Shown: in pieces, positions 914 through 23,448 of the stretch
How the letters are laid out: the number at the start of each line of letters is the position of its first letter
Position numbering within the stretch: the first letter of the stretch is position 1
Virus record (IMG/VR): IMGVR_UViG_3300031711_000023
Span: 1-25,220 of that record
Origin: a virus
Strand: one strand, 5' to 3'
Length of the DNA: 25,220 nucleotides
Notes under the pieces: model-generated
Databases searched by the model: none
The model's input: the letters and a program-made list of their open reading frames with translations, nothing else
What the model was told of the DNA's origin: nothing
Program-made: the position numbers and the translations under genes

Positions 914-964
914 GGTAGTCTCCGCCCGATAGCCCCACCCCTGCGTTGGCGCCCAGCCGCCGGC
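914..964 (+). promoter_or_regulatory. Repeated leader element A (before portal)
   Basis: A GGTAGTCTCC motif (914-923) is followed by a hairpin with arms GTTGGCG (945-951) and CGCCGGC (958-964), loop 6 nt; the stem is 7 bp including two G-U pairs. The portal ATG begins 23 nt after the stem, with AGAGGA as ribosome site in between. The same element recurs before the genes at 13713, 15920 and 23469. Whether it is a promoter part, an mRNA-processing site or a translation enhancer is not decided by sequence. Confidence 0.6.
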
Positions 965-987
965 GGATTCTCACGCCAGAGGACCGC

Positions 988-3564
988 ATGGCCACCAACG
1001 ACGACACCGTGGAAATCCCCTACGAAGAGCCCCACCAGGCCAGTGACGGTGATTCGGCTGGCGAATACCTCATGCTGCCCCCGCCAGAAGACGACCTCAC
1101 CATCGAAGAAGAACCCGATGGCTCGGTCACCTACACCATGGGCGAGGACGAGACCTACGAGCGCGAGACCGGCGGGTTCTACGATAACCTGGCCGAAATC
1201 GTCCCCGAGAACATCCTTCAAAGCATCGCCACCGATCTCATTCAGAAGATCGAGCAGGATAAGAACGACCGGGAACCCGGCGACAAGCTCTACGAGGAGG
1301 GCATCCGGCGCACCGGTCTTGGCCAGGATGCGCCCGGCGGTGCCGCCTTTGACGGTGCGTCCAAAGTGGTCCACCCGATGCTGACCGAGGCGTGCATCGA
1401 CTACGAGGCCCGGATCATCAAGGAGGCTTGGCCGACCGGCGGCCCGGTGCGTCAGCGCATCATGGGTAAGCCGACCAAGGACAAGACCGAGCGGGCCAAG
1501 CGCAAGGTCGACTTCATGAACTGGCAGCTCAAGGACCAGATCAAAGAGGCCCGGTCGCAACTCGAATCGATGCTCACCCAGGTCCCACTCTCCGGGGACG
1601 GCTACCTGAAACTCTGGTACGACCCCAAACTGGAGCGGCCGCGTGTCCAGTTTCTACCTCGCGATAAGTGCATCATCCCCAAGAACGCTGGCGGCTGGTA
1701 CGCCGCGGAGCGCCGAACCGTGCTGGACACGATCTCGCGTGTCACGATGCAGGACCGGGTCGACGCGGGCATGTATCGCGACCTCAGCCTCCCGAAGGCT
1801 TCCACCGATCCGGTCCCAACCAAGCCGGAAGAGGCCAACGAGAAGATCGAAGGCGTCACGTCAGGCGGCATGAACATCGATGGTGACCGCGACACCTACG
1901 AAACCATGGCCTATCTCGAAATCTCGCCCGAGATGGCACAGGTCTTGTCCCATGAGGAAGAAGGGCGGCTTTACCCGTATCTCCTTACCCTTGACGTCAC
2001 CACCAAGCAGGTTCTGGCGCTGTATCGCGATTGGGAAGAAGACGACAAGACGCGCGAACCGATCGATCACGTATTTGAGTTTCCGTTCATCCCGTGGCGC
2101 GGCTCGCACTCGATTGGCTTGCCCCACATCATTGGCGGTCTGTCAGGCGCGGCGACCGGATCGCTTCGCGCCCTTCTCGACTCCGCCATGATCGCCAACG
2201 CGCAAGGCGGCTTCGTTCTCAAGGGTGGAACGGGAGATAGTTCCAAGACGTTGGCACCCAAGTTTGGCGAGTTTCAGCAGCTCGACGGCGGGGCCAGCCC
2301 TGGCATGAACGACATCCGCCAGCGCGTCATGCAGTTCAACAGCAAGGAGCCGTCCGGCGTTCTGTTCCAGCTTCTTGGCTTCGTGGTCGAGGCGGGCAAG
2401 GGTGCGGTTCGCACCTCACTTGACGAGATGAACGTCGACGGCAATCCCAACGTTCCGGTCGGCACCCAGCTTTCCCGCGTCGAGGAGGGGCTTGTCGTCT
2501 TCTCCGCGGTGCATGGCCGGTTCCACTCCGCGTTTGACCGCTTCTTATCTGGGCTACACCGGCTCAACCGAATGTACCTGCCGGACGAGCCGATCACAAT
2601 CGACGCCGCCGGGCAGGAACTGTTCATCAGCCGGCAGGACTTCGACAGCCAGCTCGACGTTGCGCCGGTCAGCGATCCGACGATCTACAGCGACCAGCAA
2701 CGCATGGCACAGATCCAGGCCGTGTTGGCCAGATCCGACGCGCACCCCGAGCGCTACCAGGGCCGCACCGTCGAAATGCGCCTGCTCAAACTTCTGCGAA
2801 TCGACGATCCCGACGAGTTCCTTATCCCGGACAACGTTCCCACCGAACAGAACGCGGTCAACGAGAACGTGGCCATGGCGCTGGCCAAGCCCGTCGCGGT
2901 TTTTATGGACCAAGACCACTTCGCTCACATCATGACGCACTTGCAGTTCGGCACGTCACCGGCCTTTGGCATGAACCCGCTCATCGCGCCAAAGTTCATT
3001 CCCGCATTCCTCGACCATGTTGCACAGCACATCATCTTCGCCTACGCCAAACTGTCGAACGACATTGTCAACTTCGCCACCAACAGCAGCGCCGCGGACC
3101 TCATGTCGCCGGATGGCGAGGTGAAGGCGGCCTTCGACAAACTCCTGGCCGTCGCCAGTGGCAAAGTTGTGCCCTACGCCGCTGGCCTCTATCAACAAAT
3201 CGCGCCGCAACTTCAGCAGGCCTATGAAATGCTCAAGCAGATATCTCCGCCCGCCCCCGCGGACCCCGCCACGGTTGCGCTGCAGTCGGCTCAGGCCGAG
3301 ACGGCGCGCCGGGCGCAAAACGACCAGGCCACATCGGCGCTGGCCGCGGCCAAGCTCCAGCAAACAGCACAGTCCGACTCCGCAAAGAACGCCATCCTGG
3401 CAGATCGCAATCGGATTACCGAATCGAACGCACAGATCGCCGCAAAGACTCGGCTGGCCCAAACCGCCATGCAGGGGCAAGAGGCGGAAGATATTGCACT
3501 TCTCAACATACGGGCAGGGCACGAGTCGCGCTATCGGGACGGCACGACGTTGGGGGGCATGTAA
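988..3564 (+). CDS. Portal protein
   Basis: An 858-aa protein forming the ring at the capsid vertex through which DNA is packaged and ejected. Identification rests on overall resemblance to large podovirus portals: an acidic N-terminal arm (residues 1-65), a mixed core with motifs such as LPRDKCIIPKNAGGW (about 223-237) and IPWRGSHSIGLPHIIGGLSG (about 368-387), then a long Ala/Gln-rich helical C-terminus (about 750-840), as expected for a portal barrel or crown. The ATG at 988 is preferred over an upstream in-frame TTG at 946, because 988 has AGAGGA four nt before it and the TTG lies inside the conserved leader hairpin. Longer than typical P22-type portals (about 725 aa). It heads a transcript-like unit behind leader element A. 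Confidence 0.88.
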   Translation: MATNDDTVEIPYEEPHQASDGDSAGEYLMLPPPEDDLTIEEEPDGSVTYTMGEDETYERETGGFYDNLAEIVPENILQSIATDLIQKIEQDKNDREPGDKLYEEGIRRTGLGQDAPGGAAFDGASKVVHPMLTEACIDYEARIIKEAWPTGGPVRQRIMGKPTKDKTERAKRKVDFMNWQLKDQIKEARSQLESMLTQVPLSGDGYLKLWYDPKLERPRVQFLPRDKCIIPKNAGGWYAAERRTVLDTISRVTMQDRVDAGMYRDLSLPKASTDPVPTKPEEANEKIEGVTSGGMNIDGDRDTYETMAYLEISPEMAQVLSHEEEGRLYPYLLTLDVTTKQVLALYRDWEEDDKTREPIDHVFEFPFIPWRGSHSIGLPHIIGGLSGAATGSLRALLDSAMIANAQGGFVLKGGTGDSSKTLAPKFGEFQQLDGGASPGMNDIRQRVMQFNSKEPSGVLFQLLGFVVEAGKGAVRTSLDEMNVDGNPNVPVGTQLSRVEEGLVVFSAVHGRFHSAFDRFLSGLHRLNRMYLPDEPITIDAAGQELFISRQDFDSQLDVAPVSDPTIYSDQQRMAQIQAVLARSDAHPERYQGRTVEMRLLKLLRIDDPDEFLIPDNVPTEQNAVNENVAMALAKPVAVFMDQDHFAHIMTHLQFGTSPAFGMNPLIAPKFIPAFLDHVAQHIIFAYAKLSNDIVNFATNSSAADLMSPDGEVKAAFDKLLAVASGKVVPYAAGLYQQIAPQLQQAYEMLKQISPPAPADPATVALQSAQAETARRAQNDQATSALAAAKLQQTAQSDSAKNAILADRNRITESNAQIAAKTRLAQTAMQGQEAEDIALLNIRAGHESRYRDGTTLGGM

Positions 3565-3604
3565 CCAGACACTTGCCTTTGAGGGGCGAACGGAAGAATA
3601 ATCA

Positions 3605-3625
3605 CGGCGCCAACAGGTCACGCCG
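3605..3625 (+). promoter_or_regulatory. Degenerate leader hairpin before cold-shock gene
   Basis: Arms CGGCG (3605-3609) and CGCCG (3621-3625) enclose an 11-nt loop, and the ATG of the cold-shock gene follows 20 nt later. The 3' arm, continued as CGCCGG, and the distance to the start match the four stronger leader hairpins, but the 5' arm lacks the GTTGGCG sequence and the loop is longer. I treat it as a possible divergent member only. Confidence 0.3.
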
Positions 3626-3645
3626 GAACACACCGGAGAAACACA

Positions 3646-3903
3646 ATGCTCGGTACGGTAAAATTCTACGACACGGACAAGCGGTTCGGCTTCATTACCG
3701 GAAACGACGGAAAAGACTATTACTTCACGGATGCCGGTCTGCCGCGCCGTCGCGACTACGATCCCATCGAAGGCGATCTGATCGCGTTTGACACCCGTGT
3801 CGCGGATCGCGGCCCCATCGCACACCACATCAACTTAAACCCCGACAAGGACACCACAAATGCCGTGCAGCAATTGCAAATTCTCCGAAGCCCCCAGGGA
3901 TGA
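3646..3903 (+). CDS. Cold-shock-domain protein (CspA-like)
   Basis: An 85-aa protein with a cold-shock fold over residues 2-62. GTVKFYDTDKRFGFI matches the family start, including an RNP1-type KRFGFI (residues 12-17; Arg replaces the usual Gly), and DYYFTD (24-29) sits where RNP2 is found. Family members bind single-stranded RNA or DNA and melt RNA secondary structure. The ATG has CGGAGA about 8 nt upstream. The tail from residue 63 is polar and unrelated to the fold. It is the first gene of an accessory block after the portal and overlaps the next gene by 44 nt. It may modulate late mRNA folding, of interest given the many leader hairpins here, but that link is inference. Confidence 0.88.
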   Translation: MLGTVKFYDTDKRFGFITGNDGKDYYFTDAGLPRRRDYDPIEGDLIAFDTRVADRGPIAHHINLNPDKDTTNAVQQLQILRSPQG

Positions 3904-4102
3904 GCGGGGACAGATAGTCTTTGGCGCCGACGTCCGAGTCTGCAAGCGGATGCCACCAAATACTGTCGTCATTCCGACGCAGCGCGGCCTAAGCATCAAC
4001 GCGGCATGGCCAACGGTCCCCAATGGCGGGCACTGCTTCTGCTACGAACTCAATCTGGCAATTGGTGGCGCCGTCTCTTCGATCCCGGAGACGCAACAAT
4101 GA
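3860..4102 (+). CDS. Small cysteine-rich protein, unknown
   Basis: An 80-aa protein starting inside the end of the cold-shock gene, with AAGGA 8 nt before its ATG. Cysteines at residues 3, 6, 28, 59 and 61 (MPCSNC near the start, CFC near the end) suggest a metal-binding or zinc-finger-like small domain. The stop overlaps the next start as ATGA. No named family recognised. The tight overlaps on both sides support a real, co-translated gene. Confidence 0.6.
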   Translation: MPCSNCKFSEAPRDERGQIVFGADVRVCKRMPPNTVVIPTQRGLSINAAWPTVPNGGHCFCYELNLAIGGAVSSIPETQQ

Positions 4103-4533
4103 GCGGCGCGGGAGAAGTTGCCTACTCATTTGGTCCAAGCCACAACATCACGCTTCGCAATCTACGTGACTGCCCTCCGGAACGTGCCATGCAATGCACA
4201 CTGTGGCCTTTTCGACGGCCTCTCACTCAAAGGGTGTGGTTCTGGTTTGACGAAGTTGCAGCGCGACTTGTCGGGCACCAAGAAACCGCCAAGATTATTC
4301 ACGAGACACGCACGCTTTGGCGCCGCCATCCGTGGATGCGGACGGGTGAGGTTTGGTGGCGTCCATACTGGGGCGACACATGGCCGGATGCAGTTGGTAC
4401 TATCGAGACCATTGACGTTGTCGGTCGCGATAGCGGTCTTCACCAGTGGAACGTCACGCCAAACATAGCCAACTATTATGCCTTTGACGTCGAAGCCTAC
4501 TACTGCGCCGTGCTCCGGAGAAACTTGCTGTGA
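4099..4533 (+). CDS. Tryptophan-rich unknown protein
   Basis: A 144-aa protein beginning at an ATGA overlap, with GGAG 8 nt upstream; this start is preferred to an in-frame upstream ATG at 4006 that would overlap the previous gene by 97 nt. It is unusually rich in Trp (for example VWFWFDE and EVWWRPYWGDTWPD) and has four Cys. The C-terminal half alternates hydrophobic and polar residues as in a beta-rich domain. Its stop overlaps the next start as GTGA. No function can be assigned. It belongs to the accessory chain 3646-5437 and has no recognisable virion signature. Confidence 0.55.
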   Translation: MSGAGEVAYSFGPSHNITLRNLRDCPPERAMQCTLWPFRRPLTQRVWFWFDEVAARLVGHQETAKIIHETRTLWRRHPWMRTGEVWWRPYWGDTWPDAVGTIETIDVVGRDSGLHQWNVTPNIANYYAFDVEAYYCAVLRRNLL

Positions 4534-5042
4534 TCGGCTTGGTCCGCGCGGAGATCGAGCGCCGGTATCCGTGCCGGATGGGGTTGCTTGGCGCGCGCTG
4601 CAACACTGGCGAGACCTACGTTGTGATCGGAACACCCGCACACGGCCGGCGCTTTCCGGCCGAACTCCCCGGCGTTGTCGGGGACATGGCAGGTTCCGCG
4701 GTTTGGAGCAGCGAAAAGGAGGCGTGTGCCAAGTTCCTCGAAGCCTTCAACAAATACGCGGCGGCGTGCGAGGCGCTGCGCCGGCCGGGCGAGGGCCCGC
4801 TTACTCTGTTCTGGCGCTACGCCGAGCCGCACCTGTTCATGGAGTACAGCGGACGCACCGGTAAGACCTGGACGCTGGATCGGCCGCGTTTTATCTCCAA
4901 GTGCCGAATCCGAGCCAGGCTCATTCTTACCGCCAAGCCGGTTGTCTGGGCGTCCCAAGCCGAGTACGATGCGGCCCTCGCTGCAGCGGAAAAGGAGAAT
5001 TCCCATGGCGACGACCAAGAGCACCCCGGCACCCAAGCGTAG
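4530..5042 (+). CDS. Unknown 170-aa protein, GTG start
   Basis: It begins with GTG in a GTGA overlap with the previous stop, a coupling junction seen again at 6152. The protein is a mix of aromatic, Arg and Ala residues, with a likely helical stretch at about residues 60-85 (SEKEACAKFLEAFNKYAAAC) and beta-like strands after it. No catalytic motif recognised. Its last 38 nt overlap the start of the tiny gene at 5005 in another frame. Order and coupling suggest co-production with the genes at 3860 and 4099, perhaps as a complex (inference). Confidence 0.6.
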   Translation: MIGLVRAEIERRYPCRMGLLGARCNTGETYVVIGTPAHGRRFPAELPGVVGDMAGSAVWSSEKEACAKFLEAFNKYAAACEALRRPGEGPLTLFWRYAEPHLFMEYSGRTGKTWTLDRPRFISKCRIRARLILTAKPVVWASQAEYDAALAAAEKENSHGDDQEHPGTQA

Positions 5043-5154
5043 CGCGCCGCCAGCAGGACCCGTGCGGCAGCATTACGAGTTGGCGACGACCGGCAAGATC
5101 AAAGGCATGAATGGTTCGGCGAAGCCTGCCCCGGCGAAGGGCGGCAAGCGCTAA
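5005..5154 (+). CDS. Tiny basic protein (49 aa)
   Basis: An ATG at 5005 is preceded by AAAAGGAGAA, one of the strongest ribosome sites in the window, although it lies inside the end of the 170-aa gene. The protein is almost all Lys, Arg, Ala, Pro, Gly and Thr with a short central HYELATTGKIKGMNG segment; it would be disordered and strongly positive. It resembles in style the basic proteins at 276 and 12473, so nucleic-acid binding is possible. Function unknown. The same frame is open upstream to 4675, but the Shine-Dalgarno fixes the start. Confidence 0.6.
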   Translation: MATTKSTPAPKRSAPPAGPVRQHYELATTGKIKGMNGSAKPAPAKGGKR

Positions 5155-5191
5155 CGGGATCTGCGGCGGTGGAAAACAGGTGGAGAGATCT

Positions 5192-5437
5192 ATGTCGGAC
5201 GTTGATAGAGTACCAACCCCGAAGGAGGTCTTGGCGCGCAGTGGTGCAAATTGTATCTACATCGACGAAAATGGCGTTGAAGCCATTGGGCTCACAAAAG
5301 ACGGCGTTGTTTACACTCTTTATGGGTTTGTCGTCTCCGGCGTAAAAACTACCCACCAAATGACGCCATCAGAAATCGCAGATCATTTTGGATCGGCGCT
5401 GACATGCACGATCGTCGAGTCACCCGGCCCGAACTAG
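5192..5437 (+). CDS. Unknown 81-aa protein, last gene of accessory block
   Basis: Start ATG 5192 has GGTGGAGAG just upstream; an in-frame ATG at 5111 would overlap the tiny basic gene and lacks such a site. The protein is compact and neutral to acidic, with alternating strands (CIYIDENGVEAIGLTKDGVV) and a terminal helix, consistent with a small alpha/beta fold. No family recognised. It is followed within 32 nt by a strong intrinsic terminator, so it ends the transcript of the accessory block. Its lower GC suggests later acquisition. Confidence 0.65.
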   Translation: MSDVDRVPTPKEVLARSGANCIYIDENGVEAIGLTKDGVVYTLYGFVVSGVKTTHQMTPSEIADHFGSALTCTIVESPGPN

Positions 5438-5468
5438 GGGCGCAAACAACATCTTGTTCAGGCACTTG

Positions 5469-5500
5469 AGCGGCGGAGGCGAAAGCCCCGCCGCTTTTCT
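5469..5500 (+). terminator. Intrinsic terminator with GAAA loop
   Basis: AGCGGCGG (5469-5476) pairs perfectly with CCGCCGCT (5488-5495). Inside, GGC (5478-5480) and GCC (5485-5487) close a GAAA tetraloop, leaving one bulged A. TTTTCT follows directly. This is a textbook rho-independent terminator for plus-strand transcription; the other strand has no T-tract, so it should not stop the convergent gene at 5510. Confidence 0.88.
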
Positions 5501-5509
5501 ATTAGTGGG

Positions 5510-5842
5510 CTACGATGATGACTTGGCCGCGGACGCCAGCGCGCCACCCACGCAGGCCGTCGTGTTGTGGGGCGCGCTCCCCTTGGTTCTCCGCTTGGAC
5601 TCCATCTTGGCGCGCTTCTTTCGAAGATCAGCGGCGGTGATCTCCTTGGTGTTCGCCTTTGCCCACACTTCAAGTTCTTGCCGGCTGTATGCCGTGATGT
5701 GGCTCAGCGTCAGCTTGTAGGGCGGCCCCTTACCTTCGGACGCGAGCCGCCCAAGGGTCTGCGGTGTCAGGATGTAGCCAAGCGAAATGAGATAAGACGC
5801 TGCTTCTTTTCTGGTCAGCCATTCCCTGGTGTGAGTGCTCAT
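5510..5842 (-). CDS. Helix-turn-helix regulator, AlpA/excisionase type
   Basis: The only convincing minus-strand gene, 110 aa. Residues 9-60 read like the HTH_17/AlpA-excisionase winged-helix family: WLTRKEAASYL (first helices), LTPQTLGRLASEG (recognition region), GPPYKLTLSHITAYSRQELEVWA (wing plus last helix). The tail (residues 61-110) is Lys/Arg-rich then Ala/Ser-rich. Such proteins bind DNA as transcription regulators or recombination directionality factors. An alternative start at 5908 adds 22 residues and has AAGGG 5 nt upstream, but that extension uses codons unlike the rest. It sits divergent to the gene at 5967 and convergent to the accessory block, so it could control the head genes (inference). 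Confidence 0.75.
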   Translation of the reverse strand: MSTHTREWLTRKEAASYLISLGYILTPQTLGRLASEGKGPPYKLTLSHITAYSRQELEVWAKANTKEITAADLRKKRAKMESKRRTKGSAPHNTTACVGGALASAAKSSS

Positions 5843-5966
5843 TCCGGTTTTCCGCCTACTCGGTTTTGGGTTACCTGTTCGGGATATTACTTTCTTTACT
5901 GCCGCCATACAAACCCTTGTGGATGCACGTTGCTGTTCTTCATCCCCTGGATAATCCTGCCGGATC

Positions 5967-6155
5967 ATGAGGCCACAACGTATCGAGGACGCGATCCGCG
6001 AGGAAATTCGGAGAACCAAGGACGCAGCCTTTAACGACATCCAGCCAGGAGACATCCATAGCTGGGACTTAGCAAAGGGCACGGTTCTGGGGCTTTCAAA
6101 AGCGCTCGATACGATCAAGACGGCCAAACGAGAACAGGAAGACGAACTATCGTGA
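5967..6155 (+). CDS. Small helical protein, unknown
   Basis: A 62-aa, highly charged, probably all-helical protein (AIREEIRRTKDAAF and LGLSKALDTIKTAKREQEDE). An in-frame stop at 5952 fixes the ATG at 5967, though no Shine-Dalgarno is visible; a -10-like GATAAT (5950-5955) would place transcription almost at the ATG. The stop overlaps the next start as GTGA, coupling it to the GroES-like gene. Small helical proteins of this kind are common in phage head operons, but no specific family is recognised. The 124-bp gap to the HTH gene probably holds divergent control signals that I could not define. Confidence 0.6.
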   Translation: MRPQRIEDAIREEIRRTKDAAFNDIQPGDIHSWDLAKGTVLGLSKALDTIKTAKREQEDELS

Positions 6156-6703
6156 GCGCTGTACCCGATAACACCGCACCAATATCATTTGCCACCTACG
6201 GCAGTGGTCCGACGTTTGAGTATTCCTCCTATGAGGAGGCGTTTCCGAGCGTCGAACCCGGCCGCGAACCGTTCGGCGCGAACATCCTGGTTCAGATCAG
6301 GCAACCCAAGAGCGTGACCAAGGGCGGCATCATGCTGGCCCCTGCCGACCGCTCGACCGAGTACTACAACACCCGTGTGGCCAAGGTCGTCGCCATCGGC
6401 CCGATGTGCTTCAAGTCCACCCGCGACGCCGAAGACAGTGATGGCAATCCAGTCCTGGTCCACGTCGAGTGGCCGGAAGGGCCTTGGTTCAAGGTCGGAG
6501 ATCACGTCGAAATCCCGCAGTACGGCGGTCAGCGCTTTGTCGTCAAAGGCAAAGTGTCGCATCCCGTTCGCGACTTCGACACGGACCGCAAGTGGACCAC
6601 CACCGAGGATGAAGAGGAAATCACCTTCGCCTGGTTCAAGGCCAAGGACATCATCGCCAAGATCACCAGTGATCCTTTACGGATCATTGCCTACGCAGAC
6701 TAG
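6152..6703 (+). CDS. GroES-like co-chaperonin (Cpn10 fold)
   Basis: A 183-aa protein whose core (about residues 38-172) follows the Cpn10 pattern: GANILVQIRQP start strand, GGIML (58-62) where GroES carries the mobile-loop hydrophobic tripeptide that docks on GroEL, RVAKVVAIGP (75-84), KVGDHVEIPQYGGQRFVV (114-131) and a closing AWFKAKDIIAKI (160-171). It is longer than GroES (about 97 aa) because of an N-terminal extension and an insert around 88-110. Phage GroES homologues (as T4 gp31) help fold capsid protein in host GroEL; placement directly before scaffold and capsid genes fits. No GroEL gene is in the window. GTG start in a GTGA overlap. Confidence 0.85.
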   Translation: MSAVPDNTAPISFATYGSGPTFEYSSYEEAFPSVEPGREPFGANILVQIRQPKSVTKGGIMLAPADRSTEYYNTRVAKVVAIGPMCFKSTRDAEDSDGNPVLVHVEWPEGPWFKVGDHVEIPQYGGQRFVVKGKVSHPVRDFDTDRKWTTTEDEEEITFAWFKAKDIIAKITSDPLRIIAYAD

Positions 6704-6714
6704 GGACGCCACAC

Positions 6715-7986: not shown

Positions 7987-7998
7987 AGGACTCACACC

Positions 7999-8643: not shown

Positions 8644-8665
8644 GGAGCCCCACGATTCTGCCGAA

Positions 8666-8700
8666 GGTGTCCACGGTTCAACAATGAACGTGGGAGCACC
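8666..8700 (+). promoter_or_regulatory. Hairpin covering the ribosome site of the decoration-type gene
   Basis: GGTGT (8666-8670) pairs with GCACC (8696-8700), CCACG (8671-8675) with CGTGG (8689-8693) and TTCA (8677-8680) with TGAA (8685-8688), around an ACAA loop: 14 pairs with a 1-nt and a 2-nt bulge. The Shine-Dalgarno GGGAG (8692-8696) lies within the 3' arm, 7 nt before the ATG at 8704, so the structure could limit translation initiation. There is no T-tract, so it is not a terminator. Confidence 0.65.
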
Positions 8701-9357: not shown

Positions 9358-10275
9358 ATGGCCACCCCGATGACATCAGCGCTCTTCAAGAGCATTGTGT
9401 CCCCGATCTTGAACACCGAATTCGACGGCGTCTACGACCAGCGCGAAGACGAGTGGAAAGGCCCGTTCAAGGAGATCACCGGTATTGCCCGCAGCTACCA
9501 CGAGGAACCGTTCCTCTATGGCTTCGGCGCGGCCCCGGAACTTCCGGACGGCGCCCCCGTCACCTATCAGTCCGGCGGCGAGTTGTTCCGCAAGCGCTAC
9601 CAGTACAAGGTCTACGGCCTTGCCTTTGCGCTTACCCAGATCCTGGTGGAAGACGGCGATCACATCGCCATCGGCCAGATATACTCGCGCCACCTCGCAC
9701 AGTCCCTGGTCGAGACCAAGGAAACGCTGTGCGCCAACGTGTTCAACCGGTCGTTCAACTCCAGCTATGCCGGCGGTGATGGCGTCAGCCTGATCAGCGC
9801 GGCGCATCCCCTGGCCACCGGCGGCTACTGGTCGAACCAGCTCGCCTCCTCGGCCGCCCTGTCGCAGACCTCCGTCGAGCAGATGCTTACGCAGATCCGC
9901 AACTCGGTCGACGCCAACGGCAAGAAGATCAACCTCAAGCCGCGCGCCCTCGTCGTCGCTCCCGCCAACGAACTCCAGGCCGAAGTCATCTTGAATTCAA
10001 TCCTGCGTTCCTCGACCGGCAACAACGACCTGAACCCGATCAAGTCGAAGAACCTCCTGCCGGAAGGCGCCTACACGGTGAGCCGTCTGACCTCGCCGAC
10101 GGCGTGGTGGATCATCACCAATGCTCCGGAAGGCAACAAGGTCGTGGTTCGTCGGCAGGTCAAGCGCTCGATGGAGGGCGACTTCGAGACGGACAGCATG
10201 AAGTACAAGGCCACTTCGCGCTATGCCGTCGGCAACAGCGATCCTCGGGCCGACTTCGGAACGCCGGGGCTCTGA
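9358..10275 (+). CDS. Major capsid protein
   Basis: A 305-aa protein with AAGGAG 8 nt before the ATG, a strong ribosome site as expected for the most abundant virion protein. Features shared with HK97-fold capsid proteins of podovirus-like phages: an N-terminal helix region, GYGVAF-like KVYGLAFALTQILVEDGD (about residues 83-100), DGVSLISAAHPLATGGYWSN (about 141-160), PRALVVAPANELQAEVIL (about 196-213) and a C-terminal basic/beta segment. It builds the icosahedral shell with the portal and scaffold encoded upstream. A hairpin and T-run follow the gene. HK97 fold is inferred, since sequence alone is rarely decisive. Confidence 0.85.
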   Translation: MATPMTSALFKSIVSPILNTEFDGVYDQREDEWKGPFKEITGIARSYHEEPFLYGFGAAPELPDGAPVTYQSGGELFRKRYQYKVYGLAFALTQILVEDGDHIAIGQIYSRHLAQSLVETKETLCANVFNRSFNSSYAGGDGVSLISAAHPLATGGYWSNQLASSAALSQTSVEQMLTQIRNSVDANGKKINLKPRALVVAPANELQAEVILNSILRSSTGNNDLNPIKSKNLLPEGAYTVSRLTSPTAWWIITNAPEGNKVVVRRQVKRSMEGDFETDSMKYKATSRYAVGNSDPRADFGTPGL

Positions 10276-12953: not shown

Positions 12954-13622
12954 ATGGGCAAGAACATCGTACATTTGCCGGAGGGTCAGGACTTTTTCGG
13001 CGGTCCGGCCGGCAAGCACACCGCCATGATGAAGGATTTCGGGTTCAAGGAATCGATCGGTAGCGGCAAGTCGCCGGTGGCGAAAGCGCATGGCGGACGG
13101 ATGTGCAAGGCAGATGGAGGGAAGGTCGAGAAGGTACCAGTTCCAAAACCGAGGCCGGATATCCGCGGCGATTACGACCAGATCAGCAAGGCATACGACG
13201 AGCCCGGCATGGGCCTAATTTCGCATACGTCGTACATGCACAAGCGCACGGGGAAAGAAACGCCAGACATCCCCAAGAAGGCACTTCCTCTTGCCAAGGG
13301 CGGCATGGTCCACGACGACGCTGCAGCCGACAAGGTGATGATCAAGAAGGGCATCAGCCAGCACGAGACCCAGGAGCACGGCGGCAAGCATGCCGACATC
13401 AAACTGCGCCGCGGTGGCAAGCCCAAACTCCCAAAATCTGCCAAGCCGTTACGCCGGTTCATGCGGCGACCGCCGATCCAAAAACCGCCAATCCTTCCGA
13501 CCGCATCGTCGCCCGGTTCCGCGCTCAACAGTGCGGCCCCTCCGGCCCCCGACTTCACCGCGACCGCCGGACCGCCGCCAAATTCCGGTGTCACGCCGAT
13601 GCGCCGCGGTGGCCGATGTTGA
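12954..13622 (+). CDS. Basic protein with repeated Gly-Gly motifs
   Basis: A 222-aa protein starting 4 nt after the previous stop. It carries repeated short GG motifs in a basic setting (KAHGGRM, KADGGKV, LAKGGMV, LRRGGKP, MRRGGRC) and His/Lys-rich linkers; the last 60 residues are Pro/Ala-rich. No globular family is recognised. GG motifs of this type occur in several uncharacterised phage virion proteins. It ends the second head/virion unit; leader element B follows. Confidence 0.6.
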   Translation: MGKNIVHLPEGQDFFGGPAGKHTAMMKDFGFKESIGSGKSPVAKAHGGRMCKADGGKVEKVPVPKPRPDIRGDYDQISKAYDEPGMGLISHTSYMHKRTGKETPDIPKKALPLAKGGMVHDDAAADKVMIKKGISQHETQEHGGKHADIKLRRGGKPKLPKSAKPLRRFMRRPPIQKPPILPTASSPGSALNSAAPPAPDFTATAGPPPNSGVTPMRRGGRC

Positions 13623-13642
13623 TGACGCTGCCGTAGTGATAT

Positions 13643-13687
13643 GGTAGCCTTGTTTTCAGCAATCCGAGTTGGCGCATGGCCGCCGGC
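13643..13687 (+). promoter_or_regulatory. Repeated leader element B (before signal-peptide gene)
   Basis: GGTAGCCTTG (13643-13652), then arms GTTGGCG (13668-13674) and CGCCGGC (13681-13687) with a 6-nt loop. The ATG at 13713 follows 25 nt after the stem, with AAAGGAG between. Same element as A, C and D; the GGTA motif matches the others less well in its second half. Confidence 0.6.
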
Positions 13688-13712
13688 TATCCTTCCAAAG
13701 GAGCCCGTGGCC

Positions 13713-14687
13713 ATGCGCCGTTTTCTTTCCAGCCTGATTCTTATCTTCCTCGCCACCGTGGCCGCCGCCGCCCAAAGCGTGCAGCCGTTTTCGCCCACGG
13801 CGACACCTGTCACGCTTGCGGTCACCGCTTCATCGGCGCGTGTGGCTCTGCCGTCAACAAGTCCAACAGCGCTAATCGTCAATACCGGCTCGAATGCGGC
13901 CTACATCGTGTTGGGAAATTCGAGTGTTGTGGCAACGACGTCCAATCTTCTGCTCAATCCCGGGTGTCCGTTTGCCCACAATTCAAGCGGCCAGACCTAT
14001 CTTGCGGCAATTACCGCGACATCCACAACGACCCTGTCAATCTCTACCGGATCAGGACTTCCCACACTTCCAAACAGCGGGTGTGTGATTTCAGGGGTCA
14101 TTTCCGGCACCGTTACTGCAAACCAAGGCACCGCAGGCGCGAACGCGTGGCCGGTCAAGATCGACCAGACTACGCCCGGCACGACCAATGGGGTGGTGGT
14201 GAACTCAGGCACGGTCAGCGTTGGTGGTGAATTTCAGCAATCCGCAACGCTTACGGTCGCAGCCTCGTCGCACGCAGCCAATCAATGCCTCGGGCCGACG
14301 CAGTCGTTCACGGTTACCACGCTCGCAAATGGTGGCGTGATCCTCGACAACGTCAGCCTGCGTTGGCAGACGGGGCTGACGTCCCCGGTCGCGTTCTATA
14401 TTTTCAACGCTCAGCCCACTGCGTGCGACGATGGCGCGACTTTTGCGCTTTCCGCCGCAGACGACGACAAGCGCCCGCCCGGTGGGTATTTTGTCATTAC
14501 CCCCTCGACCATGCAAGGCGTGACACAGACGAGTGGCGTCTATAATAATATGGCTATGCACATGAAGGCCGATGCGGCGGGTAAGATATGGATACAGGCC
14601 GTGACGACCGCGACTGTATCGCCGGGCTCGGTCGGCGACCCGCACGTTTCCATCAATGGTATGTGGGACAATACCGCGGGGCTGTAA
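13713..14687 (+). CDS. Virion-like beta protein with signal peptide
   Basis: A 324-aa protein whose first 22 residues (MRRFLSSLILIFLATVAAAAQS) form a classical signal peptide. The body looks like a phage structural domain: SPTALIVNTGSNAAYIVLGN and YLAAITATSTTTLSISTGSG (about residues 45-120), then ANAWPVKIDQTTPGTTNGVV and a C-terminal beta domain. The four Cys all lie in the exported part, consistent with disulfides. ATG 13713 has AAAGGAG 9 nt upstream; a GTG at 13707 in the same frame is possible. A signal peptide is odd for a virion protein, which normally assembles in the cytoplasm; it may act in the periplasm or host envelope. Confidence 0.7.
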   Translation: MRRFLSSLILIFLATVAAAAQSVQPFSPTATPVTLAVTASSARVALPSTSPTALIVNTGSNAAYIVLGNSSVVATTSNLLLNPGCPFAHNSSGQTYLAAITATSTTTLSISTGSGLPTLPNSGCVISGVISGTVTANQGTAGANAWPVKIDQTTPGTTNGVVVNSGTVSVGGEFQQSATLTVAASSHAANQCLGPTQSFTVTTLANGGVILDNVSLRWQTGLTSPVAFYIFNAQPTACDDGATFALSAADDDKRPPGGYFVITPSTMQGVTQTSGVYNNMAMHMKADAAGKIWIQAVTTATVSPGSVGDPHVSINGMWDNTAGL

Positions 14688-15735: not shown

Positions 15736-15850
15736 CCCGCGCCCTTGCCCCTTGCCGACCACGAGAACGGGCACCCGCGCGGGTGGCCTAGCGATCATCC
15801 TGGAGGGTAGTAAGCCACTATTCTCGCTCATGACATCTTTTGGTGCCCAT
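15736..15850. other. Non-coding gap with a perfect palindrome
   Basis: The gap from 15736 to the next start at 15920 holds a 14-nt perfect palindrome, CACCCGCGCGGGTG (15772-15785), with no T-tract on either side, then a Shine-Dalgarno-like GGAGGG (15802-15807) without a close start codon, then leader element C. The palindrome could be a weak transcript end or a protein-binding site. Confidence 0.4.
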
Positions 15851-15894
15851 GGTATTGTCCCGGCACCACTGAGTTGGCGACGGTCCCCGCCGGC
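15851..15894 (+). promoter_or_regulatory. Repeated leader element C (before first tail adaptor)
   Basis: GGTATTGTCC (15851-15860), then arms GTTGGCG (15873-15879) and CGCCGGC (15888-15894), loop 8 nt. The ATG at 15920 follows 25 nt after the stem, with GGAGA between. Same element as A, B and D; its position argues against earlier in-frame starts for the adaptor gene. Confidence 0.6.
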
Positions 15895-15919
15895 TGGTTT
15901 CCTATGGAGAACCAGTCGA

Positions 15920-17038
15920 ATGCCAACCTCGGGTACCGTTTCTCAATACCGCCTGACCGTCCAGCAGGTGATCGACCACGCCTTTCGCCGATCAACAGGG
16001 CTAGGTGCTGCGAAACTGGCCGGCGAGTCCCAGATAATCGCACGCGACTGCCTCTACACCCTTCTGTCCGAACTGGTGAACGTGTCCTGGCCGCTTTGGA
16101 CCCAGCAGTTCAGCGTCCTCAGCGTCGGCATCGGCTCGGCCGATGTCCTGACCCCAAACGGAACCGTCGATGTCAGACACGCCTACTGGCGCAGTTTCTG
16201 GCCCTGGCGGAACGACGCGACGCTAACGGATGGCTCCGATGGGACTGACCTGTTCGCAGGCGCGCCAAACGATGATGTGACAGTTCCCGGCCCTAATCCA
16301 TCGGTGTCAGTAGACTTTGGCGTAGACCAAACGGTCGACGGCATCGGCGTGCTTTGGGGCGGCTCCGCCAGCGTGACCACAGCGCTGACCCTTCTGACCT
16401 CAAAAAATGGGGACGACTATTCGGCCGCCAAAACCCTTCCGGTCACAACCTTCACCGGCGGCCAGTGGTCATACTTCAAACTCGATCCGGTCATCACCAC
16501 GGAATATCTCCGCATCCAGTACACCTCGGCAGGTTCCTGGCTTCTTAACCAGTTGAACTTCTGCTCGAACAGCCAAGACATCGAGATGGGAATGATCTCG
16601 ATCGACGACTACTACAACCTGCCAAACAAGCAGTACTCCGGTGAGCGCGCCGTTCAGTGCTACGTCGAGCGCAACGTGCTTATGCCTACCCTGAAGATTT
16701 GGCCGGTGCCGAACACGCAAGCCTTCTACAACGGAACGGTTTCGTCGGTGATGCGCCGCTACATCCAAGACCCTGGCGCGTTCTCTGACGTCCTGGAAAT
16801 TCCGCAGCGCTGGTACGAGGCGGTGATCTGGCGGCTCGCGTCTCGCCTCGTCGACGAACTTCCCGACGACACCACGGGTCTTGCCAGCATGGATGGCGCC
16901 ACCCGAATCCAGGAGAAAGCTCGACGGACCCAGCGTTGCGAGGATGGCGCGACCCGTGCAGAAGCCCTTGCGTGGAGCGAGGAAAGAACTCCAGGTCCGA
17001 TCCATATGACGCCAAATCTTGCGTGTTACACCAAATAA
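15920..17038 (+). CDS. Tail adaptor/connector protein with F5/8-type insert
   Basis: A 372-aa protein. Residues 1-95 (SQYRLTVQQVIDHAFRRSTG, then ARDCLYTLLSELVNVSWPLW) and 225-372 (LKIWPVPN, YIQDPGAFSDVLEIPQRWYE, ending MTPNLACYTK) match a podovirus tail adaptor type that joins portal and tail. Between them, residues about 100-215 look like a galactose-binding/F5-8 type C beta-sandwich (VSVDFGVDQTVDGIGVLWGG, GQWSYFKLDP, TTEYLRIQYTSAGSW). Start at ATG 15920 (GGAGA 9 nt upstream), although the frame is open further upstream. The insert may decorate the tail collar and bind sugars. It is the first gene behind leader element C. Confidence 0.72.
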   Translation: MPTSGTVSQYRLTVQQVIDHAFRRSTGLGAAKLAGESQIIARDCLYTLLSELVNVSWPLWTQQFSVLSVGIGSADVLTPNGTVDVRHAYWRSFWPWRNDATLTDGSDGTDLFAGAPNDDVTVPGPNPSVSVDFGVDQTVDGIGVLWGGSASVTTALTLLTSKNGDDYSAAKTLPVTTFTGGQWSYFKLDPVITTEYLRIQYTSAGSWLLNQLNFCSNSQDIEMGMISIDDYYNLPNKQYSGERAVQCYVERNVLMPTLKIWPVPNTQAFYNGTVSSVMRRYIQDPGAFSDVLEIPQRWYEAVIWRLASRLVDELPDDTTGLASMDGATRIQEKARRTQRCEDGATRAEALAWSEERTPGPIHMTPNLACYTK

Positions 17039-17054
17039 TTGCGGAGATTTTTCG

Positions 17055-18118: not shown

Positions 18119-18125
18119 GGGTCTC

Positions 18126-18554: not shown

Positions 18555-18557
18555 CCC

Positions 18558-19226
18558 ATGGCGACGAATGTCAACTACACGTCATTGGTTGGTGACGTTA
18601 CGCGCTACATCGAGCGCGGCGGATCGGCCTCCAGCGACCCCACGGTGTTCGATCAAATTCCTCGGCTTATCAATCAGGCTGAGCGGAACATCATGACAGC
18701 GCTGAAACTTCTTGGAGCCGTAGAAGTGTTGGTCGACGGAACCGGCCTCACCGAGGGCCAGCCGATCGTCACCAAGCCAGATCGCTGGCGCCAGACTGTT
18801 TCGATCTCATATGGGGCTGGCGCAACAAACAACACGCGCACCCTTTTGCTTCCAAGAAGCTTGGAGTATTGCCGAAACTTCTGGCCTGACGACTCTGTCA
18901 CCAACGCCGATTTTCCGCCGCAGTATTACGCCGACTATGACCTCCAGCACTGGCTGGTCTGCCCGACGCCGCCGTCTACGTACCCACTAGAAATCATTGC
19001 ATACCTTCAGCCGATGCTACTCGATGAAACAACGCAGACCAACTTTTTCACGATCTACACGCCTTCGCTTCTGCTCTACGGCGCCCTGCTCGAAGCGGCG
19101 CCATTCCTCAAAAGTGATGACCGCATTCCGGTCTGGCAGACCTATTGGAACCAACAGGTAGCACTGCTTCAGACCCAAGACCTTCAGCGTATTCTCGACC
19201 GCTCGACCGAGAGGAAATCCACATGA
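18558..19226 (+). CDS. Head-tail adaptor protein
   Basis: A 222-aa protein of the short podovirus adaptor type (comparable in role to P22 gp4): N-terminal NYTSLVGDVTRYIERG, FDQIPRLINQAERNIMTAL (about residues 31-49), beta middle, and a helical end SLLLYGALLEAAPFLKSDDR (about 170-190) with TYWNQQVALLQTQDLQRILD. It would dock below the portal ring and help close the packaged head. The Shine-Dalgarno (GGAAGG) is 11 nt away, rather far. Its stop overlaps the tail fibre start as ATGA. Confidence 0.78.
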   Translation: MATNVNYTSLVGDVTRYIERGGSASSDPTVFDQIPRLINQAERNIMTALKLLGAVEVLVDGTGLTEGQPIVTKPDRWRQTVSISYGAGATNNTRTLLLPRSLEYCRNFWPDDSVTNADFPPQYYADYDLQHWLVCPTPPSTYPLEIIAYLQPMLLDETTQTNFFTIYTPSLLLYGALLEAAPFLKSDDRIPVWQTYWNQQVALLQTQDLQRILDRSTERKST

Positions 19227-21529
19227 CTTCCGGCTTCGCAAACAAATTCACTGGTAATCCCGTCAAGCCCGCCCAGGTGCAATACGAGCCCCTGACGTTC
19301 ACGGTAAGTACGTCGCTGGTCTGGCCTACCGAGTCCCTTGAAGGTGCCAATTACGTTGCGGCCTGGATGAACTGTGTTGCGAGCGCTGCATCACTATCCT
19401 TGATCATGCCTGACGCGACGATTGGAACTCCCGGCGTTGCCGCCATTATGACTAATATTGGCGCCTACACATTCAGCGTGACCGATAGCGTTGGAACACT
19501 AATCGGGACAATTGAGGCCGGGCAGAGCTGGGTCATTGTTCTGGAGGACAATTCGACGGCCTCCGGGGCGTGGCAGGCCGTCCAACTCGGCGCCACGACC
19601 AGCAATGCGCAGGCCGCAGCCCTGGCCGGCGCCGGACTCCAAGCCATCATCGACAAACTGCAGATTCAAATTCTGACGGTATCGGCAGCGACAAACCAAG
19701 CTATTACCGCGGATTACCGGGCCAAAGGATTTGTCTGGACGGGCGTTAACGGGACTATCCAACTCGACGCGCTTTCGACCCTAACTGTCGGGTGGTGGTT
19801 CCTGGCTACAAATAACGGAACCGGAACGCTTACTATTTCAGCGACGGGAACCGACACAATTAACGGCCACGCCAGCATCACGCTACCGGCTAACCCTGAC
19901 GGAACCCCGTATTCCACCATCATTGTTGCCGGGGCGACAGGGTTCGTCACTTTTGGCGGTGCGCCATCGGTGATCCCGATTTCCGGAGGTGGAACGGGCG
20001 CAACCTCATCTGATGCCGCTTTGGTGAACTTTGGTGGCACAACGCTCGGTATCAGCCTATTTAAGGTTTTGACCCCCGCGGCGGCACTCGAATTACTTGG
20101 CATTGGACCAAGCGCATTCACCGAGGCAACAACTGCATCCAATCAGTCTCTGACGAGCGATTCAGCCAATACGGCCTTTATTTGTACTACCGCACTGACA
20201 ATAAGTCTTCCGGACAGTACCGACAGTGACAATGGCATCGATGACCGGTTTCTTTTTGCGGTCTACGCATACGGTGGCGACGTTACATTAGCTCCCGTGA
20301 GCACAGATGCGGTCAACGGAAATGAGAATGGTGTTTCATTTGTAATAACCCAGGGCAGTTCCGCCATTGTTTTCACGGATGGAGATAAACACTGGTGGGT
20401 TCCGTTTTGCTACAACCAAGGAATTCAGTGGTCTGCCTCGGCCGGTGCGGGTGACGCCTACACTTCCACGTTCACTCCGCTAATTCCGTTTTTCAATGAC
20501 GGTCTTGTTATCGGAATTCGGATGCACACCGCAAACACGGTGGTCGACCCAACCTTGAAGGTCGACAACTATCCGGCTCGCACCATTACAAAGCTTGGCG
20601 GAAAAGAACTCGCGCCAAACGACATACCTGGAAATAACTTCGATGCAATCTTTCGTCTCAACGAGGGGGCCGATCGCTGGGAACTAATGAACCCGGTGAC
20701 AACGTGGCTTGATAACTATTCCACATCTCGGGGGGCGACGGTATTCCGAGGAAAAGATTACTGGGAGGCATTAGCGCCAGGTCTCAATAAGCAAATTCTC
20801 ACGATGTATGTCGACGATACCGACAGCACGATAAAATATGTTCTATGGAAGGACCCGCCTGGGCCAAAACTTCACACGAGAACCTTCACATCCGGAAGCT
20901 CAATCACATTCGATGATACCGTGGACACAAACACAGTGTTCGAAGTAACGGGAGCGGGCGGCGGAGGTGGCGCGTCAGGAGGGCCGGGCGGTGGTAACGG
21001 AAACGGTGGCGCCGGTGGTGGCGCGGGTGCATATGGCCGCTTCTCGTTCTCCGGAATGGACGCAGGTGAGGTCGCTTCAATCACGATCGGAACCGGAGGA
21101 AACGGTGGGTCTGGTTCAACGGACGGAACGGACGGAACGGCATCGACGTTTGTTTATGGGTCGGCAAGTTTTAACTTTGGTGGTGGGGGGGGCGGTGTTG
21201 CTGGTGGGCCGTCAACAGGTGGATCGGCGGGAACCTGCACAGTAAGTGCGGGGTCACTTACCCTTTTAGATTCGGACGAACCGACAGTCGGGCGCGGAGG
21301 TGACGGCCAATACCTAGGAAATTCGATTGCCGTCGGGGGCGCTGGCGGGTCAAATCCTTTGGGTCAAGGGGGAGCAACGTCATGGGGTGGAAATCAGGCA
21401 TCCGCACTCACTGGAAATAACGGTACTGGTCACGGCGGTGGTGGGGGCGGAGGCGCTGAAAACGGCGGAACCCTTACCAACGGCGGCAACGGCACAAACG
21501 GCGTTATTATCCTTCGCTGGGTGTCCTAA
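19223..21529 (+). CDS. Tail fibre with glycine-rich tip
   Basis: A 768-aa protein starting at an ATGA overlap (GAGAGGAAA upstream). Residues 1-170 look like a conserved podovirus fibre N-terminus (SLEGANYVAAWMNCVASAAS, LIMPDATIGTPGV). Two beta domains (about 170-250 and 300-390) resemble the protein at 18126. ISGGGTGAT (about 252-260) is a motif typical of tail fibres. From about residue 578 to the end, long Gly runs (GGGGGASGGPGGGNGNGG and later clusters) end in GVIILRW, suggesting a polyglycine-helix tip like those used for receptor binding. This is the likely host-range determinant. GC is lower than in the head genes. Confidence 0.82.
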   Translation: MTSGFANKFTGNPVKPAQVQYEPLTFTVSTSLVWPTESLEGANYVAAWMNCVASAASLSLIMPDATIGTPGVAAIMTNIGAYTFSVTDSVGTLIGTIEAGQSWVIVLEDNSTASGAWQAVQLGATTSNAQAAALAGAGLQAIIDKLQIQILTVSAATNQAITADYRAKGFVWTGVNGTIQLDALSTLTVGWWFLATNNGTGTLTISATGTDTINGHASITLPANPDGTPYSTIIVAGATGFVTFGGAPSVIPISGGGTGATSSDAALVNFGGTTLGISLFKVLTPAAALELLGIGPSAFTEATTASNQSLTSDSANTAFICTTALTISLPDSTDSDNGIDDRFLFAVYAYGGDVTLAPVSTDAVNGNENGVSFVITQGSSAIVFTDGDKHWWVPFCYNQGIQWSASAGAGDAYTSTFTPLIPFFNDGLVIGIRMHTANTVVDPTLKVDNYPARTITKLGGKELAPNDIPGNNFDAIFRLNEGADRWELMNPVTTWLDNYSTSRGATVFRGKDYWEALAPGLNKQILTMYVDDTDSTIKYVLWKDPPGPKLHTRTFTSGSSITFDDTVDTNTVFEVTGAGGGGGASGGPGGGNGNGGAGGGAGAYGRFSFSGMDAGEVASITIGTGGNGGSGSTDGTDGTASTFVYGSASFNFGGGGGGVAGGPSTGGSAGTCTVSAGSLTLLDSDEPTVGRGGDGQYLGNSIAVGGAGGSNPLGQGGATSWGGNQASALTGNNGTGHGGGGGGGAENGGTLTNGGNGTNGVIILRWVS

Positions 21530-23121
21530 TGGCTGAGGATCACAAGGAGTTAAAATTTCCCCCAGGAATACAGCGAGACGGAACCGCGCTCGACTCCGAT
21601 GTCTGCATTGACGGACTATGGACGCGGTTCAAAAACGGGCGGCCCCGCAAGATGCCGGGTTACAAGAACGTCTATTCAAGTTTGTCCGGAAAGCCCCGCC
21701 GCGTGCACATGTTCTATCAAAACTCAAAAATCTACGTTCACGTCGGAACTGGGGCGTCCCTCGAACAAATTATCATGGATCGGAACGGAAATTTTCTCGA
21801 ACACCATGATAGAACGCCGGACGTTTTTGCATCTGGCCCTGAGTCGGGATGGACGCTTGACGCAATGTTTGACTCGACCAGTAAGGTGACGCAGATCATT
21901 GCACACTCGTCTCCGGACATCTCGCTCAACGCTTCGGACGTTGGAACGATTCCGTTCATCGGTGATGTTACAAAGTCCGACAAATTAAAGCCAATTCACT
22001 ATTCCTACCAAGACGACGGTTCCTATTATCTTCCCAAAATCTCCGGCGGTATTGCTTGCATAAAATCGTTTCTGTTCGACTTTGACAGCAACGGATACGT
22101 CGGCTGGTCGGCGCCAAACCTTCCGGAGACCCTTGGTCTTCAAGGCGGATCGTCCGGAGCCGGGAGCGCCCGCGCCTCTGCGCAGAAGATCATCGCTGGT
22201 ATGCCGGTTCGTGGTGGATCGGCCGGACCGGCCGCACTGTTCTGGAGCCTTTCGGAACTAATCCTCGCTCAGTTTATTGGAACAGCGAGTGGTGGGTTTT
22301 CGTTCAATACGGTTTCGCCGTCGAGTTCCATTCTGTCGCCGCAAAGTGTCATTGAATACAACTCGCTCTATTTCTGGGCCGGTGTCGATCAGTTCATGGT
22401 CTACAATGGAACCGTCGTCGAAGCCGTGAACAATTTCAATGCCGACTGGTTCTTCGACAACATAAATTGGGATGCTGCTGGTAAGTCGTTTGCCTATAAG
22501 GTCCCTCGGTTTGGGGAAATTTGGTTTTGCGCCCCTTTGTTCGGGGCGACGGAGCCGAGCCATGCCGCGATCTTCAACGTCCGCGAAAATTGCTGGTACG
22601 ACACCGAACTTCCGGAAGGTGGCCGCGGCGCCGGGTATTTTGCGCAGGGAACGCACTATCCCGTCATGGGCGGCGTCGAGAAGGGAGACACAGGTTACAC
22701 CCTTTGGGCTCACGAGTGCGGGTTCGACAAATTGGTCGACGGAAAGCCAGAGCCGATCAGGGCTTATTACACGACGCCGGTTATCAGCGGTCCCGGCCTT
22801 GATCCCCCCGCCGATGAAGGAATGTCGATTGGTCAGATGGAACCGGACTTTATTCAGTCCGGAGACATGACCGCTACAGTTACCGGTCCAGCGAATGCCA
22901 AGGCCGATCCGGTCGATGGAACCCCGTCTGTCATCAAAGCCATTCCCAAAACGCCAGCGGAACAGCTCATCGGGTTCAAGGATGCGCGGCGCCTTGCCAG
23001 CATCCGCTTTGAGAGCAATACGCTTGGGGGGAACTTCGTCGCAGGAAAGACGATCCTTCACACCACAAGGGGCGATGCCCACCGCACTGGTGGCGCGGCC
23101 CCAGCGATCGGCAAGAAGTAA
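21529..23121 (+). CDS. P22 gp10-like tail hub / DNA stabilisation protein
   Basis: A 530-aa protein beginning in a TAATG overlap. Its opening LKFPPGIQRDGTALDSD and GLWTRFKNGRPRKMPGYKNV (about residues 9-48), with later SLYFWAGVDQFMVYNGTVVE and FNVRENCWYDTELPEGGRGA, match the family that plugs the channel after packaging and forms a beta-propeller-like hub to which fibres attach. Position directly after the tail fibre gene fits that role. The C-terminal 100 residues are a beta domain. Start has no clear Shine-Dalgarno, so translation is probably coupled to the fibre gene. Confidence 0.85.
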   Translation: MAEDHKELKFPPGIQRDGTALDSDVCIDGLWTRFKNGRPRKMPGYKNVYSSLSGKPRRVHMFYQNSKIYVHVGTGASLEQIIMDRNGNFLEHHDRTPDVFASGPESGWTLDAMFDSTSKVTQIIAHSSPDISLNASDVGTIPFIGDVTKSDKLKPIHYSYQDDGSYYLPKISGGIACIKSFLFDFDSNGYVGWSAPNLPETLGLQGGSSGAGSARASAQKIIAGMPVRGGSAGPAALFWSLSELILAQFIGTASGGFSFNTVSPSSSILSPQSVIEYNSLYFWAGVDQFMVYNGTVVEAVNNFNADWFFDNINWDAAGKSFAYKVPRFGEIWFCAPLFGATEPSHAAIFNVRENCWYDTELPEGGRGAGYFAQGTHYPVMGGVEKGDTGYTLWAHECGFDKLVDGKPEPIRAYYTTPVISGPGLDPPADEGMSIGQMEPDFIQSGDMTATVTGPANAKADPVDGTPSVIKAIPKTPAEQLIGFKDARRLASIRFESNTLGGNFVAGKTILHTTRGDAHRTGGAAPAIGKK

Positions 23122-23366
23122 TGGCGGTAAATCCCTCTATGATCGGATTTGACGCCTGGGCGGCTCAAACCTCGTCGTCGATTCAGCAAAGCGGTGGCGG
23201 GGTACCCCAGGCCCCGGCCGATGAAACGCACTGGCGGGCCTACGCGACCCAGCTCAAGCAGGCCCAATCACCCATTGCGACCGAGATTCCAGACCATGCC
23301 GGGTTTGAGAAATGGCAGGATTGGGCGGCGCGGGTCTACGATAGCGCACAGCGGAACGGTCTGTGA
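23121..23366 (+). CDS. Small phage protein with duplicated FxxW motif
   Basis: An 81-aa protein in a TAATG overlap. Two related segments occur, GFDAWAAQTSSSIQQ (about residues 9-23) and GFEKWQDWAARVYDS (about 61-75), suggesting an internal duplication of a short helix. Between them HWRAYATQLKQAQSPIATEI looks helical. It has no Cys. Function unknown; position after the gp10-like gene suggests a minor tail protein. Confidence 0.6.
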   Translation: MAVNPSMIGFDAWAAQTSSSIQQSGGGVPQAPADETHWRAYATQLKQAQSPIATEIPDHAGFEKWQDWAARVYDSAQRNGL

Positions 23367-23403
23367 CCCAGGTTATGGGGTCTTTCGCTACGCCGCCCTC
23401 CCT

Positions 23404-23448
23404 GGTAATATCCTTGCCGCACCCCGCGTTGGCGACACTCCCGCCGGC
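23404..23448 (+). promoter_or_regulatory. Repeated leader element D (before GNAT gene)
   Basis: GGTAATATCC (23404-23413), then arms GTTGGCG (23428-23434) and CGCCGGC (23442-23448), loop 7 nt. The ATG at 23469 follows 20 nt after the stem, with AAAGGA between. It shares CACCCC and GCGTTGGCG context with element A. A -10-like TAATAT (23406-23411) overlaps the first motif, but no good -35 is seen. Confidence 0.6.

Follow-up and report, generated by a model that had tools for sequence, protein, structure and literature searches.

A repeated promoter-linked leader hairpin as a candidate translational control element of phage late genes

The timing of phage late genes is usually attributed to transcription. 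In phage Mu, Com reads CC(N)2-3GAG in a loop and has one target, the mom TIS (PMC6483171). The T4 genes e, soc, 49 and I-TevI carry inhibitory structures in their initiation regions, and use of the late promoter takes away the 5' portion, one half, of the helix (PMC3014915). The put RNA of phage HK022, about 70 nt long with two stem-loops, acts on RNA polymerase (PMC9378689). The LoaP-dependent leader hairpin of dfn and mln, which are Bacillus secondary-metabolite operons, has a UNCG tetraloop and serves antitermination (PMC12691694). Here we describe a short hairpin, hairpin A, that precedes four late genes of a tailed phage. It looks like an undescribed control element, and it probably times translation of its genes.

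Four hairpin copies and their putative upstream promoters

The window is the whole stretch of DNA analysed, a linear virus record of 25,220 bases with late genes of a tailed phage. It encodes a portal protein (988-3564, + strand; phrog_1216, E = 1.3e-5), a small cold-shock-domain protein directly 3' of the portal gene (3646-3903, +; Pfam CSD PF00313, score just at the cut-off), a GroES-like protein (6152-6703), the major capsid protein (9358-10275), and tail and fibre proteins. The closest annotated phages are Caulobacter phages RW, KcrB, RLK and GB2A (portal 44%, capsid 69% identity). The closest records overall are L146 (portal 47%, site-3 gene g15920 42% identity) and L179 (g15920 46%).

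We observed exactly four copies of GTTGGCG-N6-8-CGCCGGC in the record, all intergenic, on the + strand and with identical 7-nt arms, compared to 0.017 exact copies expected on average in third-order Markov shuffles. These are the copies that the initial annotation had placed, with loops of 6, 6, 8 and 7 nt (CCCAGC, CATGGC, ACGGUCCC and ACACUCC at sites 1-4). All four fall within the ~4.4% of the window that is non-coding. The + strand contained no site with one mismatch to the pattern, and no other recurrent 6-bp hairpin on this strand of the window reached three copies. The true stem is 8 bp, as the flanking bases pair too (C-G, A-U, A-U and C-G at sites 1-4), and its folding energy is -10.4 to -11.4 kcal/mol per copy. 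The initial annotation knew of no described element with such a sequence, and Rfam covariance models run against the whole window likewise gave no match up to E = 1.

Each copy leads a gene on the + strand. Site 1 (944-965, +; 8 bp, loop 6) precedes the portal gene. Site 2 (13667-13688, +; 8 bp, loop 6) leads a gene with a signal-peptide-like start and no family match (13713-14687, +), and site 3 (15872-15895, +; 8 bp, loop 8) leads g15920, which has an F5/8-C-like domain and is conserved in relatives (15920-17038, +; phrog_12985). Site 4 (23427-23449, +; 8 bp, loop 7) leads an acetyltransferase-like gene (23469-23954, +; phrog_1249, E = 7.5e-6). Start codons lie 23, 25, 25 and 20 nt from the arm end at sites 1-4, in line with the 20-25 nt described earlier.

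The sequence GGTANNNT precedes the hairpin at 4/4 sites. On the + strand of the window, GGTANNNTCC occurs three times, always at a hairpin site, and three of the four occurrences of TGGTANNNT are at hairpin sites; about 0.5% of random quadruples share a 4-mer and a further conserved column. GGTA lies 31, 25, 22 and 24 nt before the stem at sites 1-4, the range of 22-31 nt given before. Site 2 has the promoter ATGACG-N17-TAGCCT with TGG before the -10 (13622-13650, +), and site 3 has ATGACA-N17-TATTGT with an extended -10 (TGG; 15830-15858, +). Sites 1 and 4 have a -10 without a clear -35: TAGTCT at 916-921, in GGTAGTCTCC (914-923, +), and TAATAT at 23406-23411, in TGGTAATATCC (23403-23413, +). 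The promoter in L146 has a -35 of CTGACG and a 17-bp spacer, and that in L179 reads TTGAAC-N18-TAGACT. Sites 2 and 3 and L146 fit NTGAC[AG]-N17-TANNNT with TGG. The promoters thus show sigma70-type features (TTGACA-like -35, 16-18 bp spacer, TANNNT, extended TGN), sites 1 and 4 by the -10 only.

The best reading of GGTA is as a -10 region of the host sigma70 type (TGG-TANNNT), and with a sigma70-like -10 at this place the hairpin would lie near the mRNA 5' end. The -10-to-stem distance is 22, 16, 13 and 15 nt at sites 1-4 (10 and 12 nt in L146 and L179), which would put hairpin A about 4-16 nt from the inferred 5' end. From the sequence, we infer that transcription starts at the four promoters. 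Of the earlier proposal of a phage late promoter plus leader, the coupling of promoter and leader is supported; a dedicated phage promoter is not, as the promoter looks like host sigma70.

The initial annotation also had the four genes begin four plausible transcripts. Two features split the first late block, a strong terminator (about 5468-5500) and a gene on the reverse strand (5510-5842), and the block seems to resume at a hairpin-less promoter-like site near 5950. Not all late transcripts begin with a hairpin, and the copies cannot be taken to mark every late start. The intrinsic-terminator-like hairpin in the middle of this block (TTTTCTATT; 5466-5500, +) has a GAAA loop and an energy of -24.5 kcal/mol. 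The promoter-like sequence CCCTGGATAATCC at 5940-5967 (+) resembles that of site 4 without the hairpin, and a small ORF and the GroES-like and capsid genes come right after it. At site 2 (13628-13650, +), the -10 region and the 3' arm of a terminator-like hairpin overlap; the upstream block would end at this hairpin.

Predicted competing folds of the leader

RNAfold of the leaders prefers a second structure, fold B, where the right arm extends a hairpin that holds the Shine-Dalgarno sequence (SD) and often the start codon too. At site 1 the right arm is predicted to pair around the SD and AUG (959-992, +; -18.4 kcal/mol). At site 2 fold B would hide the SD and start (13670-13720, +; whole leader -40.2 kcal/mol), and at sites 3 and 4 the SD (15891-15918, +, -16.0 kcal/mol; 23442-23468, +, -14.4 kcal/mol). 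Hairpin A and fold B are mutually exclusive. The right arm is the strand common to both and the better conserved arm.

We assessed fold B by keeping the right arm fixed and shuffling the downstream sequence. Total energy was lower than in shuffles at three sites (P = 0.005, 0.18, 0.009 and 0.009 at sites 1-4; Fisher 6e-5), and so was the energy gained through the right arm (P = 0.016, 0.16, 0.024 and 0.005; Fisher 2e-4); site 2 was not significant in this arm-only test (P = 0.16-0.18). The right-arm gain was -11.6, -7.9, -9.3 and -13.3 kcal/mol at sites 1-4, compared to at most -7.6 kcal/mol when the right arm was grafted 22 nt before 23 other gene starts of the window. RNAduplex with the right arm alone did not separate the sites from controls; the effect appears only as an extension of the SD hairpin. 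Pairing of the left arm to the start of the coding sequence was striking in predicted folds and was set aside, as it was not above control genes.

The energy of hairpin A (about -11 kcal/mol) is close to the right-arm gains of B, as expected of a two-state leader. In equilibrium folding of the whole leader, B beats A by 6 to 21 kcal/mol. Forcing A raised SD exposure modestly, from 0.49 to 0.54, 0.11 to 0.47, 0.12 to 0.32 and 0.40 to 0.50 at sites 1-4. With B favoured at equilibrium and so modest a gain in exposure, a factor or co-transcriptional kinetics must be assumed.

Our preferred reading, to which we give a probability of about 0.4, is a promoter-coupled 5' leader that acts as a translational switch. 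Transcription from a sigma70-type promoter would yield an RNA in which hairpin A, M-GUUGGCG-(N5-8)-CGCCGGC-K, is the earliest structured feature. The right arm of A could alternatively extend B, locking the SD and start codon of the first gene. With A formed or stabilised the ribosome-binding site would be free, and with A lost it would be hidden, which would make A an anti-sequestor. A candidate trans factor, a phage or host protein, would recognise hairpin A; recognition of A is probable because the stem sequence is kept beyond mere pairing. In this way, translation of the leading gene in several late blocks would be held back or timed. Folding in vivo, the trans factor and the regulatory effect are all postulates of this model. 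The earlier idea of a translation enhancer is not supported as such, given a leader predicted to hide the SD at equilibrium; what it retains is the anti-sequestor role that the hairpin would play. For an RNase processing site, also suggested before, the stem is short and nothing in support was found.

The same stem might instead be a 5'-terminal protective or ribosome standby structure that counters 5'-dependent decay of late mRNAs without any switching, fold B being a by-product of GC-rich sequence. On the inferred transcript, hairpin A does come ahead of any other structure, about 4-16 nt from the 5' end, and its loops vary freely, as expected if only stem stability counts. A generic stem, however, should not keep arm bases identical at 14/14 positions, two fixed U-G pairs among them, across four sites whose loops are unrelated, and the pairing of right arm and SD exceeds both the shuffles and the 23 control genes. 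We consider this reading unlikely.

Diverged copies in related phages and a candidate regulator

A covariance-model scan of relatives, as proposed by the initial annotation, recovered diverged copies in L146 and L179. The model (R2) was built from the four window copies and run on 60 related loci (1.16 Mb). It matched L146 at 15912-15937 (E = 0.02 in 1.16 Mb, second-best match) and L179 at 14288-14312 (E = 0.58, rank 4). The L146 copy, TGGTACAGTCC-tgacg-CCGC-GCCTGCG-ccttgc-CGCTGGC-G-N13-AGGAG-cccgccg-ATG, occupies the counterpart of the site-3 junction, into which one small gene is inserted. TGGTANNNTCC occurs once in the 45.5-kb record of L146, directly before its hairpin. The L179 copy, GTTGGCG-N5-CGCTGGC, lies between the TTGAAC/TAGACT promoter and GAGG-N6-ATG. 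In both, the -10, hairpin, SD and ATG follow the order and spacing of the window, features that R2 did not see. Fold B was tested independently in L146, where the right-arm gain was -10.0 kcal/mol (P = 0.047); it was weak in L179 (gain -7.0 kcal/mol, P = 0.12-0.37).

The element is present in three phages (the window phage, L146 and L179), with one copy each in the incomplete records of L146 and L179. Further convincing copies were not found in the full records of 50 relatives, and screening the relatives for repeated leader hairpins or leader 8-mers gave noise only. The best R2 match, in L208, and those in L173, L163, L224, L276 and phage RW were rejected because they lie inside long open frames. 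A 282-nt leader precedes RW_GP076c, the Caulobacter phage RW homologue of the site-3 gene (locus L278, record about 43881-44161); this leader contains a terminator-like stem as well as a long inverted repeat rich in GC, and its sequence differs from the window element.

Over the six copies, the outer pair is CG in three, AU in two and GC in one, and is always paired. Two UG pairs become CG in L146, where U-U also takes the place of one pair; in L179 that pair is GU. Pairing holds in 97.9% of cells, matched by 8/500 shuffles, a count from few sequences that is biased towards pairing as the relatives were picked with a structure-containing model. On these sequences the outer-pair covariation is real, and a position that changes while always paired favours an RNA stem. 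Loop length ranges over 5-8 nt, and orientation relative to the gene is constant. The proposal of an RNA-level leader element coupled to a promoter is supported by the non-coding location, the two relatives, the covarying outer pair, the variable loop and the fixed orientation. We regard a real promoter-linked leader hairpin as well supported and highly probable.

The inverted repeat could also be a DNA operator that acts on the late promoters from a position immediately 3' of the start site. Its simplest ligand would be the small excisionase/HTH-like protein encoded on the reverse strand within the otherwise forward late region (5510-5842, -; HTH_17 below cut-off, excisionase/regulator matches). 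Among the fetched loci, homologues of this protein occur only in the element-bearing L146 (about 6205-6372) and L179 (about 711-899), again on the reverse strand; the three phages may be one clade, however, which makes this co-occurrence weak evidence. Read as half-sites, G-Y-Y-N-G-C-G, the element would tolerate the L146 mismatch. The spacers of 5-8 bp, the variable distance to the -10 and an orientation always along the gene all speak against an operator, as does the coordinated change of the outer position on the two sides, a requirement of pairing but not of a dimer site. An operator seems to us about as doubtful as a protective stem. The HTH protein is a candidate regulator, and action through DNA is at least as plausible for it as action through RNA. 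For the translational switch, no match to a Com-like or other RNA-binding regulator was found among the window ORFs scanned (25-kb fragment). The product of the cold-shock-domain gene is a possible RNA chaperone candidate; the gene had no match in the relatives searched.

Comparison with described leader systems

Less probable again is a role in transcription elongation, in which a put-like hairpin, or one to which an antiterminator binds as LoaP does, would modify RNA polymerase where long late operons begin. In favour of this, the transcripts with the hairpin at their 5' end head blocks of several kb; in HK022, putL follows closely on its promoter, and LoaP depends on a small leader hairpin. 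No readthrough is required, however, since the sole strong internal terminator (about 5468-5500) has a promoter-like site and a reverse gene after it, and this lowers the antitermination reading. In addition, put has two stem-loops and a length of about 70 nt, the UNCG loop of dfn contrasts with a non-conserved loop here, and a NusG paralogue was not seen in the window.

Exact-pattern scans of IMG/VR and GTDB genomes gave, among the matches listed, single copies, and the inspected sites appear to lie inside long open frames; these look like chance matches within genes. Matches in L374, L384 and L388 stand before an ATG and were rejected for want of promoter spacing. A portal search of genome contigs gave no match. 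Although the exact motif is thus also found singly in public collections, apparently within genes, a functionless coincidence of chance or assembly is very hard to reconcile with four exact non-coding copies compared to 0.017 expected, a constant order of promoter, hairpin, SD and start, and diverged copies in two relatives.

Returning to the translational switch, a broader form is more tentative: a clade of phages related to Caulobacter phage RW may couple its sigma70 promoters to a sequence-specific RNA hairpin of an undescribed kind, and one trans factor may stabilise this hairpin and so free, in several late blocks together, the ribosome-binding sites that are hidden. If one short RNA does compete with SD-hiding folds at several late blocks, virion genes would be co-regulated post-transcriptionally. 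The hairpin is a compact part that is open to testing, and the related HTH gene offers a first candidate regulator.

The element is not filed under Com targets, put, dfn hairpins or any Rfam family because it fails a defining test of each and has no Rfam match. Like the dfn/mln hairpin, it is small, near-identical and common to separate operons; unlike it, the loops are 5-8 nt and none is UNCG. It resembles put as a promoter-proximal structured phage RNA, but is a single 22-24 nt hairpin adjoining the SD. As in the T4 e-type leaders, the SD and/or AUG of a late gene would be held in an RNA helix; here, though, both hairpins are downstream of the predicted -10, and one sequence recurs at four genes. 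A fixed stem with a free loop would be a mode of recognition unlike known phage leader elements. In contrast to the Mu Com target, the stem is conserved and the loop is not, none of the four loops contains GAG, and the window phage has four targets compared to one in Mu. Mu mom TIS/Com is nonetheless closest in working, through its logic of a hairpin set against an inhibitory fold. Both are late-gene leaders in which a short hairpin immediately precedes, and overlaps with, an inhibitory fold that would conceal the start of translation, and in our computations a start-hiding B fold like that of the Mu TIS is predicted at 4/4 sites and in L146, above chance overall.
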